From: an uncultured Clostridia bacterium
GTDB taxonomy: Bacteria > Bacillota > Clostridia > Lachnospirales > CAG-274
Assembly (NCBI GenBank): GCA_944381435.1
Contig: CALWLD010000008.1
Coordinates: 1 to 64,000 of the forward strand
DNA: 64,000 nt
Direction of reading: 5' to 3'
Each line of letters opens with the position of its first letter. The first letter of the stretch is position 1. The notes under the pieces were generated by a model. The model did no database searches. It had not been told where the DNA came from and was given only the letters and a program-made list of their open reading frames with translations. The translations under genes were made by a program, and so were the position numbers. This document shows positions 49,972 through 63,480 of this stretch, one piece after another.

Positions 49972-50133
49972 TTATTTTATATTTATTCCAATACATTTCG
50001 ATAAATATTTTTCCTTTGTTGCTAATCCCCCTCTTATATGCCTTTCAGATTTATTAAGGTCTAATACCTTTTTTGCCCTATTAGCAAGGTTAGGATTTAT
50101 CATAAGTAATCGTTCTGTAACATCTTTATGTAT
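49972..50133 (-). pseudogene. spoIIID: 3' part of spoIIID, separated from its 5' half by a mobile element
   Basis: SpoIIID is a helix-turn-helix regulator of the mother-cell line in sporulation. From 50133 leftward the frame encodes 53 residues that match the second half of B. subtilis SpoIIID: HKDVTERL (for HKDLTERL), INPNLANRAKKVLDLNKSERHIRGG and LATKEKY, then the stop at 49972. Upstream in this frame there is only a short run and then a TAG; there is no start codon and no DNA-recognition half. The native terminator follows. The preceding DNA is the 3' end of a serine recombinase gene, which overlaps it by 8 bp. The N-terminal half was not found in this window and should lie beyond its right end. 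Confidence 0.9.
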
Positions 50134-51661
50134 AATTATTTCTAATAAGAACGTTTTTGTCTACACCAATATCTGAAAATGCTTTTAAATATATATTTAC
50201 ATTTCCTCTTTCATCTACTACTATTTTATCTATTATTTTTTTAAGGCTAGCATTTGTTAAATTGTCCATATTTAAAATATTTTCTAAATCTTTAAATGTA
50301 TTATATATTGTTTCTTCTAGCCTGTCCCCTTTTGATAGGTTGTTTTTTATAAATTCAAGCTCTTTTTTATTTTTTTCTATATCTTGATTTAATTCTTTAA
50401 CTTTTTTATTAAGTTCATCTCTTGTTATTAAATCATCTGTATACATTTCCATATACTTTTCTTTTGTTTTTTGTAATTTACTTAATTTTTTTTCTATTTC
50501 CTTTTCTATATTGATATTATCTTCTTTATTTTTATATATTTTGTTAAATTCTTTTACTATCCTTTCTACTGTATCTTTTTTACTTTCTAATATACTTTTA
50601 AAATATCCTTTTATAGCCTCTGTAAGCTCTGTTTCATCTATTTTACTAAAGTTTGGGCAACTGTCTTTTCCCTTAGCATTTCTTCCACTACATACCCATT
50701 TTATATAAGTATTTCTATAAACTCTCTCAAGCCTTCTAAAACTATAACCACAACAACTGCAACGTATAAGTGTGCTAAATAAATGCTTGTTACTTTCTCT
50801 TTGCTTATTCAAATTAAAATCTATATTTCTCTTTTTAAGTATAGCTTGTACTTTTTCAAAATCTTCATTACTTATAATAGCTAACTCTGGCTTTTCTATT
50901 ACATACCATTCTTCACTATCTTTTTTCTTTCTAACTCCTGTTAAAAAGTCTTCTACTTCTTCTTTACCATTTACAATTTTACCTGTGTATATTGGATTTG
51001 TTAAAATTCTTGATATTGCATTTTGGCTCCAATTACAATTCCTTTTTGTTCTATATCCTTCATTATTTAATATTTGTGCTATTTTATTTGCACCATTACC
51101 TTCATTTAAATATAAATTAAATATTTTCTTAACTACTTCTGCTTCCTTTTCATTTATTGTAAGATTAAAATAATCCCCTTTTATTTTGTCATATCCATAT
51201 ACAAAGTTAGGTACACGCCCTTTTTCTGCATTTATTCTCTTGCCAAACTTTACTCTTTTTGATGTGTTTGCACTTTCTTCTTGTGCTAATGCTCCAAATA
51301 TTGTAAGTACAAATTCCGAATTACCTAAAACAGTTTGATTTGATGTTAAAAATATTGTTTCTATACCTAAAGCCTTTAACTGCCTTATACTCTGTAAAAA
51401 ATCTACTGTGTTTCTTGCAAAACGTGATATATCCTTAACTATTACTATATCAAATAGACCTTTTTTAGCATCTTCCATTAACTTTTGAAAACTTTCTCTT
51501 TTTTTAATTTTAGTCCCACTTATACCTTCATCACTGTAAATTTTTAATAGTTTATAACCATTTTTATTGGTATATTCTTCAAAAAATTTCTTTTGTGCCT
51601 CCAAGCTATTCAACTGGTCTTCTTTATCCGTACTTACCCTACAATACGCTACTACATTCAT
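50126..51661 (-). CDS. Large serine recombinase, SpoIVCA-like
   Basis: A 511-residue site-specific recombinase. The resolvase-like catalytic domain (1-145) has the nucleophile Ser10 in YCRVSTDKEDQ and the DISRFARN block. A recombinase domain (about 150-270) follows, then a zinc ribbon (CSCCGYSF ... C ... C, about 300-345) and a long coiled coil (about 375-450), as in SpoIVCA and other large serine integrases. AAAGGAG precedes the ATG. Its last codons run into the SpoIIID reading frame, placing it at the element's left boundary. It is the likely integrase/excisionase of the element. No sigma-E type promoter was recognised upstream. Confidence 0.95.
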   Translation of the reverse strand: MNVVAYCRVSTDKEDQLNSLEAQKKFFEEYTNKNGYKLLKIYSDEGISGTKIKKRESFQKLMEDAKKGLFDIVIVKDISRFARNTVDFLQSIRQLKALGIETIFLTSNQTVLGNSEFVLTIFGALAQEESANTSKRVKFGKRINAEKGRVPNFVYGYDKIKGDYFNLTINEKEAEVVKKIFNLYLNEGNGANKIAQILNNEGYRTKRNCNWSQNAISRILTNPIYTGKIVNGKEEVEDFLTGVRKKKDSEEWYVIEKPELAIISNEDFEKVQAILKKRNIDFNLNKQRESNKHLFSTLIRCSCCGYSFRRLERVYRNTYIKWVCSGRNAKGKDSCPNFSKIDETELTEAIKGYFKSILESKKDTVERIVKEFNKIYKNKEDNINIEKEIEKKLSKLQKTKEKYMEMYTDDLITRDELNKKVKELNQDIEKNKKELEFIKNNLSKGDRLEETIYNTFKDLENILNMDNLTNASLKKIIDKIVVDERGNVNIYLKAFSDIGVDKNVLIRNNYT

Positions 51662-51875: not shown

Positions 51876-51887
51876 AAAGGAGTATTT

Positions 51888-52786
51888 ATGAGCAAAAAAT
51901 TTTTAACTTATGATGAATAAATAGATAAATTAACCTCTAAAGGCATCATTATTAATGATAAAGACTTTGCTATAAAATGTTTAAAAGAAACTAGTTATTT
52001 TTCTTTAGTATCAGGATATAAAGATGCTTTTAGAGATAAAAAAACTAAAATATATAATAAAAATGTAAAATTTGAAGATATTTATTATTTATATAAATTA
52101 GATGAAGAACTTAGGAATCTATTTTTAAAATATATTTTAAAAATAGAAAAAAGCTTAAAATCTCGTTATTCATATTTCTTTTGTGAAAAATTTGGTGAAG
52201 AACAAAAAGAATATTTAAATGTAAATAATTTTAATTATCAAAACTATCAAAATGAAATTAATGAACTTATAAAAATATTAGATGAATATACTAAGTCTGA
52301 TAAATATGATTATATTACATACAATAGAGATACTTATAGCAACATACCTTTTTGGATTTTAACTAATTGTTTGACTTTTGGTAATCTCTCAAAAATGTAT
52401 GAATACTCTAACATAAATATCAAAATTGATATTGCTAAGGAATTTAATATACAAAATTCTCAACTTGAATCAATGTTAAAAATTATTACAAAATTTAGAA
52501 ATGTTTGTGCTCATAATCAAAGATTATATAACTATAAAACTAAAAATTTCAATAATAAAAAAATTCCATAAAAGATTTACCTATTCATAAAACTAAAAAT
52601 CTTAATAATATGGGTAAAAATGATTTATTTGGAATTTGTCTATGTTTTAAATACTTATTAAATGAAATTGATTTTAATATATTTCTTGAAACATTAAATG
52701 ATATTTTAATAAATTATAAAACTAATTGTTCTAATTTATTAAAAATATTAAAATGTATGGGTTTTCCTCAAGATTGGTATGATTGA
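51888..52786 (+). pseudogene. Abortive infection Abi_2 (AbiD/AbiF) protein, inactivated
   Basis: The frame starting at ATG 51888 (MSKKFLTYDE) meets TAA at codon 11 where relatives have glutamine (CAA), then continues as a full Abi_2 protein. The hallmark FRNVCAHNQRLYN (RxxxxH, HEPN-type RNase motif) is at about 52496-52534. A second lesion follows at 52556-52562, where an A7 run appears one A short; restoring one A resumes the frame through IKDLPIHKTKNLNN to the TGA at 52784. Two independent defects make it a pseudogene, unless the A-run is a sequencing error and the stop is read through. A terminator follows. Confidence 0.85.
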
Positions 52787-52835: not shown

Positions 52836-52967
52836 TTAACTTATTTCTCTTTCTAACTCTTTATTATTTATTTTATTTAAAATATTTTCTACTAAAATAT
52901 GTACTATTTGTTCATAAGTTTCTTCTATAGTATTAGGATTATGAAATATAAATTTTATATTCCCCAA
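52836..52967 (-). CDS. Small conserved mobile-element protein, 43 residues
   Basis: TTG at 52967 follows AGGGGG by 7 nt and opens a 43-codon frame ending at 52836. The protein begins GNIKFIFHNPNTIEETYEQI and continues with a short helix rich in N, K and E. Short proteins with the pattern FIFHNPNT-EET are frequent in Firmicute plasmids and integrative elements, of unknown function. It lies 80 bp downstream of the RHH gene in the same direction. Confidence 0.65.
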   Translation of the reverse strand: MGNIKFIFHNPNTIEETYEQIVHILVENILNKINNKELEREIS

Positions 52968-53047
52968 AGATAAGCCCCCTTTTATATTATTTAATTTATA
53001 CTATGCTTGTACAAGATTAAATATGCTTATCTCTATTTATAAAAATA

Positions 53048-56863: not shown

Positions 56864-57195
56864 TATAAGTTAACAAATAGTTTTCTTATAAGTTTACTTT
56901 ATACAATATAAGGTATAAAGGTAGAGGATTGATGTCAAGACCTGTTGAATATATTTATTTTGCAAGGCTTGAATAAGATTAATAACTATAGAACTTATTA
57001 TGTCTTCAATAGATATTATATTGTATCCTAAAGTTATTATGATAATCACCTCCAATAGATATGCTATTTCTATTATAGCATAATTTATAATTGCAAATTT
57101 TGGACAGCTAATATTGATATTAAAAAATATTAATATTAAGTTTTTGTATATACCTGTCAACATTAGGAACGCTGTCCTCCCTGTTGACAGGTTTA
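56864..57195 (+). ncRNA. Structured non-coding RNA of the reverse transcriptase system
   Basis: No protein fits this stretch on the plus strand, yet it folds well. CTTTATAC/GTATAAAG form an 8-bp stem near 56897-56920. TATGCTAT/ATAGCATA (57060-57067 / 57075-57082) form another. TAATATTGATATT and AATATTAATATTA (57109-57121 / 57126-57138) form 13 bp with one G-U. ACCTGTCAACA/TGTTGACAGGT (57152-57162 / 57182-57192) form a perfect 11-bp stem just before the ribosome site. GGACAGC (57102-57108) complements GCTGTCC (57171-57177) in that last loop, a possible pseudoknot. Defence RTs of the DRT2 and DRT9 types use an ncRNA in this position as template. Confidence 0.7.
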
Positions 57196-57216
57196 TGCTA
57201 TTTTAAGGAGATTTTT

Positions 57217-58590
57217 ATGAATTGGATAGAATGGAAAAAGAATAATAATACTTTATCAAAGTATACACATTTTGATAAACGAACTTCCATATGTAAATGT
57301 TTTAATTATATTATTAATCCTGATAATATATCAAAACATAGTTTTTATCCTTTTATATACTATGAACAAGAAATAAGAAAATTTTCTAGAAAAAATTACT
57401 TAAAATATAAGCAAGGCATAAAAGAAAAACCTAAACCTAAAACTAGACCTATATGTTACTCATCTCATATTGATAAATGTATTTATAAATATTATAGTGC
57501 GTTATTAAATTTAAGTTATAATTCTTATAGTAAAGACAATAATATTGATGATTGTGTATTAGCATATAGAACTAATAAAGATAAAAAAAATAATAATAAT
57601 ATTTATTTTGCTAAAAATGCTTTTGATTTTATAAAAAAATATGATTGTAATATTATAGTTGGTGATTTTTCTAATTTTTTTGATAACTTGGAACATAATT
57701 ATTTAAAGAAATGTATTAAAGAAGTTTTAAATGTTAATACATTATCTAATGATTGGTATGCTATTTTTAAAAATATAACTAAATATTCTTATTGGAAATT
57801 AAAAGATTTATTAGAATTAAATAACATGAAATATAATTTTAATGGTATAAAAGAATTTAATAAATTAGATATAGCTTTATCTAGAAGTAAATTTAAAGCT
57901 TTAAAAAAGAAATATATTATACCAAATAAGAAGAAATATGGTATTCCTCAAGGTTCTGCTATTAGTGGTGTTTTATCAAATGTGTACATGATAAATTTTG
58001 ATAAATCTATAAATACATATATTTCAAGTTTAAATGGTTTATATTTAAGGTATAGTGATGATTTTATTATTATATTTCCTAAAAATAATAATATAAATGA
58101 TGTTCGCTCCTATATAAATAAACAATTAGAAACTATCCCAAATTTAAAGTTACAAGAAGAAAAAACTCAAATTTACACTTTTTGTAATAATACTATAAAA
58201 AATTGTACAAATTTATATTATATTAATATTAAAGAAAATAGTAATAAAATTGATTATTTAGGATTTGTCTTTGATGGTAAAAAAGTTACTTTTAGAGACA
58301 AAACTATTTCAAAATATTATACAAAAATGTATAGAAAACTAAATCATATAATAAGATGTCAAGGTAAATCTAGACTAGGAAAAAAAATAAGTTGTAAAAA
58401 CTTATATAGAGATTATACTCAAAAAGGTATAAAGTATATTAGAAATTCAAAATATCCTCATAATAAAGGTAACTTTCTAACCTATGTAAATAGAGCAAAA
58501 AAAATATTTGGTAATGATTACTTGATAACTACTTCAACCAATAGACATTTACTAAAAATACGTAGAAAAAGACAAAAATTTGGTATTTAA
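57217..58590 (+). CDS. Defence-associated reverse transcriptase (UG/Abi class, DRT2-like)
   Basis: A 457-residue reverse transcriptase. Catalytic residues are D150 in VGDFSNFFDNLEH, PQGSAIS (244-250) and the YSDD box (279-282). The thumb region follows (about 340-457), ending in a very basic tail (LKIRRKRQKFG). There is no maturase, endonuclease or integrase domain, and no group II intron or retron msr/msd pattern was recognised. The start HFDKRTSICKCFNYI and the YSSHIDKCIYKYY block recall UG2/DRT2 proteins, from memory only. ATG at 57217 follows AAGGAG by 6 nt, directly after the ncRNA hairpin. It would act by copying the upstream RNA. Confidence 0.88.
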   Translation: MNWIEWKKNNNTLSKYTHFDKRTSICKCFNYIINPDNISKHSFYPFIYYEQEIRKFSRKNYLKYKQGIKEKPKPKTRPICYSSHIDKCIYKYYSALLNLSYNSYSKDNNIDDCVLAYRTNKDKKNNNNIYFAKNAFDFIKKYDCNIIVGDFSNFFDNLEHNYLKKCIKEVLNVNTLSNDWYAIFKNITKYSYWKLKDLLELNNMKYNFNGIKEFNKLDIALSRSKFKALKKKYIIPNKKKYGIPQGSAISGVLSNVYMINFDKSINTYISSLNGLYLRYSDDFIIIFPKNNNINDVRSYINKQLETIPNLKLQEEKTQIYTFCNNTIKNCTNLYYINIKENSNKIDYLGFVFDGKKVTFRDKTISKYYTKMYRKLNHIIRCQGKSRLGKKISCKNLYRDYTQKGIKYIRNSKYPHNKGNFLTYVNRAKKIFGNDYLITTSTNRHLLKIRRKRQKFGI

Positions 58591-58728: not shown

Positions 58729-59001
58729 TTAAAACAAATCACTATGTGTACCTGTTCTTGTCAAATACAAAATAAGCTCATTATCACATATTTCATAAAT
58801 TAATAACCAATCTGGAGTTATATGACATTCTCTACAACCCAAATAATTACCAATTAAATTATGGTCTTTATTTTTATCTGGTAATTTTTCACCTTTTGCT
58901 AATTTTTCTACTATATCATTAAGTAAACTTATATTATATCCTCTTTTTATAGCTAGTTTTAAATCTTTTTTAAATTTATTAGTAGCAACTATATTATACA
59001 T
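58729..59001 (-). CDS. yafQ: YafQ-type mRNA interferase toxin
   Basis: A 90-residue RelE-superfamily RNase that cuts mRNA on the ribosome. YafQ marks are present: DHNLIGNYLGCRECHITPDW (about residues 45-64) and the C-terminal LYLTRTGTHSDLF, with the catalytic His and Phe-ending tail. It overlaps its antitoxin gene by 8 bp. In YafQ-DinJ pairs the toxin is neutralised by direct binding. Confidence 0.94.
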   Translation of the reverse strand: MYNIVATNKFKKDLKLAIKRGYNISLLNDIVEKLAKGEKLPDKNKDHNLIGNYLGCRECHITPDWLLIYEICDNELILYLTRTGTHSDLF

Positions 59002-59272
59002 CTTCTTCTACTTCCTTTAATAATTCTCCAAAACTTGAATATACTTTTTTATTAGGATTATTTTTAAGTTGTTTAACTTCTTCAATTGCTTCTAATGTTT
59101 CTATATTATTTGTATTTAATGATAATTCAAAAGGTATTTTTTGTTGTCTAACAACTGTTTTAGCAAAAATATTAAATGCTGTTGTCATAGTTAAACCAAG
59201 TTCATTACAAAATAACTCAAATTGTTTTTTCAAATTTTCGTCCATTCTTATATTTATATTTGTTTGTGCCAT
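58994..59272 (-). CDS. RelB/DinJ-type antitoxin
   Basis: A 92-residue antitoxin with an N-terminal ribbon-helix-helix (TNINIRMDENLKKQFELFCNELGL, read as the operator-binding part). The conserved MTTAFNIFAKTVVRQQKIPFEL block follows, then a flexible acidic C-terminus that wraps the toxin. GAGGTGAT precedes the ATG. It precedes yafQ, the standard order, and probably represses its own promoter. Confidence 0.93.
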   Translation of the reverse strand: MAQTNINIRMDENLKKQFELFCNELGLTMTTAFNIFAKTVVRQQKIPFELSLNTNNIETLEAIEEVKQLKNNPNKKVYSSFGELLKEVEEDV

Positions 59273-59553: not shown

Positions 59554-60282
59554 TTAATATTCCATATTTATAAATTGATTTTCTAAAATACTTTTTCTTT
59601 CTTTCCAATCTGGCATCATAACAGTTAAAAAATTATAAAAATTTTTTGAATGATTAGGATATATAAAATGACAAAGCTCATGCAATATTACATACTCAAT
59701 ACAATTTTTAGAGACTTGTATTAGCAAAATATTTAAATTAATTTTATTTTTATTAGGCAAGCAAGAGCCCCATCTTTTTTTCATATTTCTAACTTCAATT
59801 ATAGGCATATTAACATTGTATTTTTCAAAGTTTAAATGTAATTTTTTAGTTATATCTAAAAATGTATTATAAGCTATATTTTTAATATAGTTATCAACCA
59901 TTTTTTTCTTTTTATTAAAATCTAAAGTATTTTTAGTATAAACATATAAAAAAACTGTATCATTAAAAACTTTTTCTTTATTACTTTCAATTAATTTTAA
60001 TCTTATATGTTTACCCAAAATATAAAAACTTTCACCACTAATATATTGCTTATCATTACTTTTATACTTGTTGATTTCTTCAAACTTATTAACAGTATTT
60101 AAAATATACCTGCCATGTTTTAAAACAAAATTATCTATAAAAGTAAATGGTATATTTTCATTGGCAGAAACAAAAATTTTACCACTATCTTTTATTCTCA
60201 TATTAAGATTTTTTACTTTTTTAATTTGTAAAGTATATTTTATTTGTTTGTCATTATATTTTACTGTTCTATCATAGCTCAT
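59554..60282 (-). CDS. YgjP-like metallopeptidase (DUF45/M48-like) of the type I restriction operon
   Basis: A 242-residue protein with the zincin motif HELCHFIYPNHSKNFY: HExxH-type (H, E, H) with a third His six residues on, as in the YgjP/WLM family. RWGSC just before it is also characteristic. Genes of this family are very often placed behind hsdR. Its ATG overlaps the hsdR stop (TAATG), and its ribosome site AAGGAG is inside hsdR, so translation is coupled. Substrate unknown. Confidence 0.88.
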   Translation of the reverse strand: MSYDRTVKYNDKQIKYTLQIKKVKNLNMRIKDSGKIFVSANENIPFTFIDNFVLKHGRYILNTVNKFEEINKYKSNDKQYISGESFYILGKHIRLKLIESNKEKVFNDTVFLYVYTKNTLDFNKKKKMVDNYIKNIAYNTFLDITKKLHLNFEKYNVNMPIIEVRNMKKRWGSCLPNKNKINLNILLIQVSKNCIEYVILHELCHFIYPNHSKNFYNFLTVMMPDWKERKSILENQFINMEY

Positions 60283-63200
60283 TAGTATCTCCTTATAGCA
60301 ATTAATTTAACTTTTTCAATTATTTTATCAATAATAGAAAAATCTATTTTTATATTGTACTTATTTTCATAACTAAAAAATAAATCATCTATTTGCATTT
60401 CAATTTTTTTATGTATATCAATATTTTCTTTCCAATCTACTTGTTTATTTTCTTTAAAAATTTCCGTTATATATATTGAAATATCTGTAATAAAATCTTG
60501 TGTAAAAAATTGTTTACCTTGTAAATTATCTTGTATAGTGTCTAGTACCATGCATATACCACCATAAAAAGCCTGTGCATTATAATCATTTTTTATTTTT
60601 TCTGGGTATTCAATGCTACTTTTATTATTTTCAAAGTCTTCTAATATGGAACGCATTTTATTTAAGTAATCGGTATCATCTATTAATTTATTTTTAAATT
60701 CTTCTAAAGTTTGTTTAATTTTTTTAGAAAAACTTTCATAATAAGATGGATTTTCGTCATATTTTTGTTTTATAACTTTAGTCAATTTACTTGTTATAGC
60801 ATCAGCTTTTGCACGGGTAGAAGTAAGGTTTTCAATTTCTTTTTCTATCTCTTCTTTATTTAAAATATCTAAAGGTGCGACAATTTTTTGAAGCCCTGAC
60901 ACATATAGATGAGTATCTAAAAGATTTTGCATAATAGGTTCATACTCTGTATTATCTATTGCATCATAATATCTAATTTTAACACTACGGCGTATTTTAG
61001 AATAAAAAACAAAGTTATCTTTATACTTTTTAATTTCATCTTTATCTACACTAATATATAATTTTTCAGAATTTAACACAATATTAAGGTATTTACCTAA
61101 ATTACAAAGCAGTTTGTAAAATGTTTCTCTTTTCTCTTCATCTGCCAAAGATACTTCTATTTCTTCAACATCTTGTTTATTTTTTAAATTTATAAATAAA
61201 TCTTCTAACGATTCATTACAAGCTCTAATTTTATTAATAATATCTATTATATCTGTAATAGTATTTTTTAAATCACTACTTTCAAAATTTTCAAGCCCAG
61301 CACCACTATAAATTTGCATTGCATCATCTAATTTTTTTATAAGTTGTCTATAATCTATAATTAGCCCATAATCTTTTCCATCTCTTAGTCTATTAGTTCT
61401 TGCTATTGCTTGTAAAAGGCTATGTTCTTTTAATTCTTTATCAATATATAAAACTTGGCAAATAGGTGCATCAAAGCCTGTTAAAAGTTTGCTACAAACT
61501 ATTAAAATATCTATATCCCCATTACAAAATTTATTTTTTATAATTTCTTCATATTTATCTTCATTTCCATATAATTTCATCATTTTAGTCCAAAAATTTA
61601 ATACTTGATTATCAGAAGCTTCGTTTATATCTTCTTCGTCTTCTCTCATATCTGGTCTAGATATAATAGTAGAACAATTTAAATCGCCCATTTCTTCAAA
61701 AGCTTCTAAGTATCTAATAGCATCTTTTTTACAGCTTGTAGCCAACATAGCTTTAAAACCTGTTTCTTTAATAGTAGTAATAAAGTGATTATTTATATCA
61801 AGAGCAATCATATTAATTCTAGCACTAGATGAGTTTAATTTTTGTAATCGACTCCACTTATTTTTTAAATCTTTCTTTTGTTTTTCTGTACATCTTTTAC
61901 TACGCTCTTCAAACCACAAATCAATATTTTTTTCATCTACATCTTGTATAACTGCTCTACCCTCATAAATAAGTGGTACTATTGCATTGTCATCAACACC
62001 ATCTTTAATAGTATATTTATGAATAAGTTTACCAAAACGATTAGAAGTTTTTTCATCTTTCATAAGTGGTGTACCAGTAAACCCAATATAACAAGCATTG
62101 GGGAATACTGTACGCATTTTTATAGATAATTCGCCATAGTTAGAACGGTGGCTTTCATCTATAAGAATAAAAATATTTTTACAATCTATTTTTACATTTG
62201 ATTTTTCTACTATATCAAATTTATTTATAATAGTTGTAATAATATCAGCTCTATTTTTTTCTATAAGTTCAATTAAATTTTTACTTGTTGTAGCATTAGC
62301 TGGCTTTAAGCCTGTATGAGCAAAAGTAGTTGAGATTTGTCTGTCAAGCTCTTTTCTGTCTGTAACAATTATAACTCTAGGTTTTATGTTAGACATTTCC
62401 ATAAGAAGATATTTTGTAAGCATAACCATAGTAAGACTTTTTCCACTGCCTTGAGTATGCCAAATAAAGCCACCTTCATAATTATTATCATTTTTACTTT
62501 TATTAATATTTTTAATAACTTCATTTATTGCAAAAAACTGTTGATAACGACATATTTTTTTCACATTGGCATCATATAATATAAAATATCTAATAATCTT
62601 TTCAACTCTTTCTTTAGAAAAAAGGGCAATAATATTTTTATCTTGTGTTGTTGGTTGTCTATCTGTAACATAATTTTCTAATTTTGCGTTTAAAAAATGA
62701 TTATCTTGTTCTTTCCAAACACTCCAAAATTTTTTAGGTGTACCACAAGTTGCATATTTAACGCTATTTTTATTTGTAGCCATTAATATTTGAGCAAATT
62801 TAAAAAGTTGAGGTATATATTCTGATTTTTGGTTTCTTATGTTTTGCTCAACAGCCTGTTCAACAGATATGTAAGGGGACTTACATTCTATAACACCAAA
62901 AGGAATACCATTTATAAAAAGTACAATATCAGGTCTTGCATTTTTAGTTGTGTTAATTTTATTAATGTCAAATTTTTCTGTTGTATGGTTAGTGTTTTTG
63001 TTCTGCAATTCAACAGAAAATTCTTCTGTTATATGGAAAACATTATTTTCAAAATTGTCCCAATCAATATATTTTAAATTAAAACTAAGATTTTTACCAT
63101 TTCCAACATTTTCAACATAGCTTTTACCGTATAATAAGTAGTTATAAATTTTTTCATTCGTACGGACTAATCCCTCAATTAAAGGTTCATCTAAATCAGT

Positions 63201-63431
63201 TATAGCTTTTTCAATATTGTTTAAAGAAAACTTATTTTCTTTATTTGCAAATTTATAACTATTTATTTTTATTAACTGTTGTCTTAAAATATCTTTTAAA
63301 ATTACATTATATTTGTTTCCACGCTGTTCTAAACATTGGGTAGGAGATATATAAGTATATCCCATTTTTTTCAGTAAATCTATTGCAGGCTGTTGGCTTA
63401 CTATCTTTTCGTTATATAAATTTTTCTCCAT
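60282..63431 (-). CDS. hsdR: Type I restriction enzyme R subunit (HsdR)
   Basis: The motor and nuclease subunit of a type I restriction enzyme, 1049 residues. The N-terminal PD-ExK nuclease core is NARPDIVLFINGIPFGVIECK. The SF2 helicase follows with Walker A HTQGSGKSLTMVML, motif II LIDESHRSNYG (DESH for DEAH) and motif VI RTNRLRDGKDYG. A C-terminal helical region binds the methylase core. ATG at 63431 has AAAGGAG 7 nt upstream; a reading from 63470 adds 13 residues. hsdM is not in the window. Confidence 0.95.
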   Translation of the reverse strand: MEKNLYNEKIVSQQPAIDLLKKMGYTYISPTQCLEQRGNKYNVILKDILRQQLIKINSYKFANKENKFSLNNIEKAITDLDEPLIEGLVRTNEKIYNYLLYGKSYVENVGNGKNLSFNLKYIDWDNFENNVFHITEEFSVELQNKNTNHTTEKFDINKINTTKNARPDIVLFINGIPFGVIECKSPYISVEQAVEQNIRNQKSEYIPQLFKFAQILMATNKNSVKYATCGTPKKFWSVWKEQDNHFLNAKLENYVTDRQPTTQDKNIIALFSKERVEKIIRYFILYDANVKKICRYQQFFAINEVIKNINKSKNDNNYEGGFIWHTQGSGKSLTMVMLTKYLLMEMSNIKPRVIIVTDRKELDRQISTTFAHTGLKPANATTSKNLIELIEKNRADIITTIINKFDIVEKSNVKIDCKNIFILIDESHRSNYGELSIKMRTVFPNACYIGFTGTPLMKDEKTSNRFGKLIHKYTIKDGVDDNAIVPLIYEGRAVIQDVDEKNIDLWFEERSKRCTEKQKKDLKNKWSRLQKLNSSSARINMIALDINNHFITTIKETGFKAMLATSCKKDAIRYLEAFEEMGDLNCSTIISRPDMREDEEDINEASDNQVLNFWTKMMKLYGNEDKYEEIIKNKFCNGDIDILIVCSKLLTGFDAPICQVLYIDKELKEHSLLQAIARTNRLRDGKDYGLIIDYRQLIKKLDDAMQIYSGAGLENFESSDLKNTITDIIDIINKIRACNESLEDLFINLKNKQDVEEIEVSLADEEKRETFYKLLCNLGKYLNIVLNSEKLYISVDKDEIKKYKDNFVFYSKIRRSVKIRYYDAIDNTEYEPIMQNLLDTHLYVSGLQKIVAPLDILNKEEIEKEIENLTSTRAKADAITSKLTKVIKQKYDENPSYYESFSKKIKQTLEEFKNKLIDDTDYLNKMRSILEDFENNKSSIEYPEKIKNDYNAQAFYGGICMVLDTIQDNLQGKQFFTQDFITDISIYITEIFKENKQVDWKENIDIHKKIEMQIDDLFFSYENKYNIKIDFSIIDKIIEKVKLIAIRRY

Positions 63432-63480
63432 ATAAATACTCCTTTTATAAATAAGGTGGGATAAACCCACCTTATAAAAA

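Follow-up and report, generated by a model that had tools for sequence, protein, structure and literature searches.

The window analyzed here, a stretch of 64,000 nucleotides from an uncultured Clostridia bacterium, contains the C-terminal half of spoIIID directly beside a gene coding for a large serine recombinase (Table 1). The recombinase carries the Resolvase, Recombinase, and Zn_ribbon_recom domains, which are the three domains of large serine recombinases, and its gene abuts the spoIIID half with a 5-base overlap. Its stop codon, TAA, is built of spoIIID-side bases, and therefore excision would change the tail of the recombinase. The stop codon of the C-terminal half lies at 49972-49974 on the minus strand, and the half comprises 52 codons plus the stop when counted from the His codon common to both halves. 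The N-terminal half was located on the same strand 4.3 kb past the right end of the window, with a TTG start and a ribosome-binding site, and it ends in ..SKSTVH at the far end of the element. The two halves are separated by 18.1 kb, and the element spans approximately 18.15 kb from His codon to His codon. The halves meet at an identical codon and in identical phase: one His codon (STVH/KD) is present in both, and around that codon each half departs from the intact gene. A PF12116 profile search of the source genome (98.8% complete, 38 contigs) returned these two half-matches and no other. The profile and domain searches thus bear out the initial annotation, which had described a C-terminal SpoIIID remnant next to a serine recombinase gene overlapping its start and had proposed looking for the N-terminal half to the right on the minus strand. 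Its reading of the stop and of the C-terminal half also stands, while its count of 53 codons has to be corrected, the extra codon belonging to the element.

Table 1. Features of the split spoIIID locus and of the intervening element
Feature	Position	Strand	Basis
spoIIID C-terminal half, His codon to stop	49972..50130	minus	PF12116 profile 35-80, E 1.4e-19; junction reading
Large serine recombinase, 511 aa	50126..51661	minus	PF00239, PF07508, PF13408
His codon CAT, attR junction	50128..50130	minus	common to both halves; symmetry center of the element ends, sole best
C-terminal piece of AbiD-like gene	52371..52571	plus	PF07751 E 1.5e-16; PADLOC AbiD
Candidate recombination directionality factor, 43 aa, TTG start, motif FHNPNT	52836..52967	minus	profile E 1.4e-5, 3.9e-14; translation
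Sigma-E-like promoter GCATATT-N14-CATAGTAT before the candidate factor	52998..53026	minus	only exact match of the string in the window
GTACAAG box inside the promoter	53006..53012	minus	one base off the presumed SpoIIID consensus
DRT type 2 reverse transcriptase	57184..58590	plus	PF00078; PADLOC Drt2 E 1.8e-135
YafQ-type toxin and RelB-type antitoxin	58729..59272	minus	PF15738, PF04221
YgjP-like metallopeptidase	59554..60282	minus	PF01863 E 5.8e-54
HsdR, type I restriction-modification system	60282..63470	minus	domain and PADLOC searches
spoIIID N-terminal half	C8:68275-68388, outside the window	minus	PF12116 profile 1-37, E 2.3e-14

The cargo of the element extends beyond the window: HsdS, from 63805 on, is only partly inside it, and HsdM lies outside. 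Among 19 proteins of the region, no phage structural gene was detected with Pfam, which speaks against a prophage. The AbiD-like gene (51886-52571) is broken by a stop soon after its apparent start, and only its C-terminal piece is open. The type I restriction-modification system of this element (L003:11283-18997) includes a second HsdS-like fragment, and genome G102 (L012:1281-4890) carries several similar cargo proteins resembling, by eye, the C-terminal domains of spore-surface (BclA-type) proteins. Cargo varies between elements, and thus the part common to them is the recombination module.

Among the eight genomes of the genus, spoIIID is split in three (G000, G040, and G043), intact in four (G038, G039, G041, and G044), and without a match in one (G042, 81% complete). 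The recombinase was present in the three split genomes and absent from the four intact ones. In the source genome, the N-terminal half has as its neighbor a methionine sulfoxide reductase gene that in G039 is found upstream of the intact spoIIID. The genes that follow the C-terminal halves of G040 and G043 also follow the intact gene in G039 and G044. These neighbors are common to split and intact spoIIID, and therefore the insertion was into the normal locus. Our results show that spoIIID is cut in two by a mobile element of about 18 kb that carries its own recombinase. An intact spoIIID at this position in close relatives, for which the initial annotation had suggested looking, was accordingly found in congeners with common neighbors. 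The annotation had read the locus as a skin-like arrangement at a different sporulation regulator, and had regarded either a complete spoIIID elsewhere or a missing N-terminal half at the right end of the element as the mark of a simple integration scar. The 98.8% complete source genome holds no complete copy and the N-terminal half is in place, so this reading is supported.

Several loci carry material resembling the element or its target. In G041, two genes coding for a YpsA-type and a helix-turn-helix protein (L077:6158-7111) are 90-94% identical to cargo of the source element and lie beside the intact spoIIID, as if an element had formerly been there. Extra, partly decayed N-terminal halves occur near the intact or split copy in G035 (L070:4015 and 15650), G038 (L075:11749-11823), and G043 (L062:810-869), and on another contig in G033 (L073:9718-9801); they may be read as traces of repeated insertion. 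Genome G042 (L005) contains approximately 11 kb of the source element at 97.5% identity, with the recombinase frame broken and no spoIIID following its end, and this copy is perhaps at another landing site.

Split spoIIID was also found in G004, G027, and G031 among 48 genomes of the family. At the level of the order, 393 Lachnospirales genomes were sampled, all at least 90% complete and many of them probably metagenome assemblies. A SpoIIID match was present in 271 of the 393 and absent altogether from 122, and 45 genomes had only half matches by score. According to the junctions as read, spoIIID is split at the His codon in 39 of the 393, approximately one in ten. Both halves were found in 32 of the 39, and one half in the other seven (the C-terminal half in G060 and G180, the N-terminal half in G069, G199, G205, G351, and G394). 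Left out of the 39 were G105 and G203 (cut by contig ends), G108 (degenerate), G248 and G299 (broken two codons later by another element), and G021, which was considered as a split case and dropped, with 10 N at the site and no such recombinase at E<=1e-60. Also outside the 39 are G219 and G326, in which a C-terminal half beside a recombinase is accompanied by a match (E 2.9e-35 and 7.3e-36) stronger than a half alone would give. In G248 (L193, L143) and G299 (L186, L144), the different element that splits spoIIID two codons further on has the ends GGTGTCA and TGACACCA.

The recombinase (E<=1e-120) was detected in 34 of the 393 order genomes, namely in 31 of the 39 split genomes versus 3 of the 354 others (Fisher p 4e-35, for genomes that are not independent). 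The three others are G219 and G326, with a C-terminal half near the recombinase and the stronger match described above, and G320, in which the recombinase runs off the contig. Broken recombinases paired with intact spoIIID were considered and rejected, as the stops in the recombinases of G031, G219, and G326 are natural ends. When the two ends of each element were placed together and the best center was sought within 12 bases of the junction, an imperfect palindrome centered on the CA of the His codon was found in 35 of the 36 elements tested. The CA was the sole best center in 33, the source element included, and tied in 2 (G132 and G170); in the exception, G206, it was one match short of the best. 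In 30 elements, the palindrome arms read GTTC on one side in 18, GAAC on the other side in 15, and both in 12. The crossover is thus predicted to take place at the CA dinucleotide of the His codon. The N-side codon of G206 is CAA, and a crossover at CA would still give His in the rebuilt codon. In G027 (L064) and G132 (L122), related recombinases with 50-52% identity lie in the opposite orientation to the C-terminal half, yet the same codon is split.

Besides the recombinase, the sole widely common gene in the 16 full elements compared codes for a small protein with the motif FHNPN, which was found in 13 of them. A profile built from ten sequences matched 30 genomes at E<1e-3, 29 with split spoIIID plus G042, including the source genome and the G050 element, which was located via its recombinase and is only 3.3 kb long. 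At the same threshold, the profile had no match in any intact spoIIID locus examined. Across the order, the small protein was present in 31 of 393 genomes (27 of the 39 split ones, plus G219, G320, G326, and G327), and the recombinase was also present in 28 of these 31. Conversely, the small protein is missing from 6 of the 34 recombinase genomes (G004, G031, G132, G180, G205, and G234); two of these, G180 and G234, have the recombinase close to the edge of a contig. In G327 (L180:6968-7117), spoIIID is intact and the small-protein gene lies 3.6 kb upstream of it; no recombinase reached E<=1e-120 in this genome, and the locus is possibly what is left of a decayed element. The protein database contains 3354 relatives at E<=0.001, some of which are hypothetical proteins of Blautia glucerasea and Extibacter muris. 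The small protein has no family in Pfam or NCBIfam and no match below E 0.05 in PHROGs, and its AlphaFold model is one long helix (mean pLDDT 82, pTM 0.48). Judging from its co-occurrence with the recombinase, its size, and its promoter, the small protein is likely a recombination directionality factor.

When the sequence before the candidate factor was scanned with the sigma-E consensus alone, 8 of 25 elements stood out at a shuffle fraction <=0.05. A pattern sharpened after inspection of the sequences, TATT/ATAWY/TAWH-N14-CATA, was present 50-97 bases before the small-protein start in 24 of 25 elements, the exception being G053; in shuffles of that stretch it turned up in a mean of 0.3 and a maximum of 2 of 25. 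The 25 were scored out of 30 small-protein genomes, with G050, G051, G091, and G109 (no clear start) and G102 left out. The pattern preceded none of 26 recombinases and 13 of 33 spoIIID N-terminal halves, and over 16 whole elements it occurred at background density (145 versus 131 in shuffled sequence). In addition, many of these promoters contain a box similar to GGACAAG, presumably the SpoIIID consensus. In 17 of 24 promoters, GGACAAR occurs 8-24 bases downstream of the first base of the -10, and in 3 more, including that of the source element, GTACAAG immediately precedes the -10. Together these make 20 of 24, against a mean of 0.6 and a maximum of 4 in shuffles. Since related elements are not independent, the promoter and box counts overstate the number of independent events. 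The spoIVA gene of the source genome is preceded by a similar string, ACATATT-N14-CATATATT, and spoIVA of B. subtilis is reported to be sigma-E driven (PMC517825). From the promoter sequences, we infer that sigma E drives the small protein.

Both spoIIID halves are under purifying selection. Their dN/dS was 0.02-0.07 in the split pairs G000-G040 and G282-G362, in which the divergence of the recombinases (dS 0.41 and 0.43) is roughly comparable to that of the halves (dS 0.63/0.68 and 0.36/0.71). Several other pairs were saturated at synonymous sites. No stop codon was found in the compared half codons of 44 genomes. Both sigK and spoIVA are intact in the source genome. Taken together, the association with the recombinase, the symmetry of the attachment sites, the selection on the halves, and the mother-cell-type promoter before the likely factor point to regulated excision.

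Excised forms were searched for in several ways. A pattern modeled on the commoner att type gave no attP junction in any of the 393 order genomes or in IMG/VR, and the predicted junction of the source element itself had no match in IMG/VR. A search of IMG/VR for recombinase relatives gave 15 stretches with a word match, and none was confirmed. The record MT838016.1 ("Bacteriophage sp.", human faeces; L149) was considered as an excised circle and rejected: it is linear, with the recombinase abutting the spoIIID C-terminal half and with host-type genes, and it looks like a piece of chromosome. Genome G320, followed as a possible excised copy, has an intact spoIIID and a recombinase running off the contig edge, and a search for the rest of this recombinase did not locate it.

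These negative searches would fit an integration scar, in which a conserved spot in spoIIID served as a landing site and SpoIIID function, perhaps together with sporulation, was lost. The order genomes without any SpoIIID match would fit it as well, and so would G004 and G109, in which the halves lie in opposite orientation as assembled and excision would thus not restore spoIIID. However, a scar is unlikely given the low dN/dS of both halves, their freedom from stop codons, the intact sigK and spoIVA, and the conservation of the small protein together with its promoter. Many contigs break off close to the halves, and in G021 the gap of N falls exactly at the site, as would be expected if the halves had been misjoined to foreign sequence in assembly. 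Such an artefact can hardly explain the data, however, because 19 of the 39 genomes carry the two halves in the same orientation on a single contig, with a spacing of 4.4 to 120 kb, three of them being single-contig genomes (G091, G227, and G362), and because the same junction recurs across families with related recombinases.

Another alternative is that excision is real and not tied to the mother cell, with the element lost at a low rate in growing cells and only element-free cells sporulating. The yabG element of C. botulinum, yin, offers a parallel, with mixed integrated and excised populations reported for it (PMC10747680). The elements studied here do move: the recombinases of G181 and G227 are nearly identical (dS 0.04) in diverged hosts (dS of the halves 0.39 and 1.67), which is a sign of recent transfer, and host families are mixed in a tree of 36 recombinase sequences computed without support values. 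This mobility, and the presence of intact and split spoIIID within one genus, are compatible with loss in growing cells. Against it stands the position of the sigma-E-like promoter, which in the elements scored is found almost always before the small protein and never before the recombinase, and we regard excision outside the mother cell as improbable.

Regulated excision in the mother cell is therefore the reading that we favor, and the locus is best read as a developmental switch of the skin type, acting on a new target that stands one step above sigK. It is probable that the recombinase and the likely directionality factor, with its sigma-E-like promoter, precisely excise the element in the mother cell and rebuild spoIIID. 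G320 and G327, which combine an intact spoIIID with parts of the module, fit this reading less well. In this scheme, sigma E would make the small factor in the mother cell, the factor would turn a standing recombinase to excision, and precise excision at the His codon would rebuild spoIIID. Excision would presumably occur in the mother cell alone, and the spore would thereby keep the element. With its own gene divided, SpoIIID could not take part in starting the switch. The rebuilt SpoIIID may then bind the box at the small-protein promoter and shut the factor off. More tentatively, with a little less than even confidence, the element might be regarded as a mobile self-limiting switch, running from sigma E through the factor and excision to SpoIIID and to shut-off via the GGACAAR box, which spreads between species, persists in the spore line, and here carries phage-defence genes.

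If this holds, DNA would be rearranged one sporulation step before sigK, and the gene affected would be that of the regulator on which the known skin elements themselves depend to be excised. The order in which this would happen is widespread and counts many gut bacteria among its members. The elements also offer a family of recombinases whose target codon is defined, together with a candidate directionality factor, both amenable to direct tests. In addition, gene counts may call such species spoIIID-negative though the gene is merely split. A literature search, with most subscription papers and preprints outside its scope, found no prior report of a spoIIID-intervening element.

The closest likeness is to the skin element of C. 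difficile, which lies in sigK. Its recombinase CD1231 is reported to be constitutive, and its directionality factor CD1234 to be under a sigma-E promoter and to require SpoIIID as well as sigma E (PMC5025042). Similarly, the spoIIID element combines a large serine recombinase with a small candidate factor under a sigma-E-type promoter and splits the gene of a mother-cell regulator. However, its target is spoIIID rather than sigK, and the SpoIIID requirement of CD1234 cannot hold here. Excision of the C. difficile skin is proven, whereas here it is predicted. Like the skin element of B. subtilis (sigK; SpoIVCA), the spoIIID element has a serine recombinase gene beside half of a split mother-cell regulator gene (PMC5025042, PMC6957869). 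In B. subtilis, the recombinase itself is controlled by sigma E and SpoIIID, whereas no sigma-E-like site was found before any of the 26 recombinases scored in the spoIIID elements. The skin elements of both species need SpoIIID, which the switch of the spoIIID element could not. Skin proper interrupts sigK, and with sigK intact in the source genome, the element is not skin proper.

Five other elements, SPbeta (spsM), vfbin (spoVFB), vrin (spoVR), gin (gerE), and yin (yabG), are reported to bear recombinases, with the gene rebuilt by excision (PMC4191935, PMC5595907, PMC10747680). The spoIIID element likewise sits in a sporulation gene and carries a site-specific recombinase, and like gin it has no phage structural gene among the proteins tested. 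It differs from these five in its target, spoIIID, and in its spread over many genera of one order. We therefore place the spoIIID element with the sporulation gene-intervening elements, among which it would work like skin at a different target.
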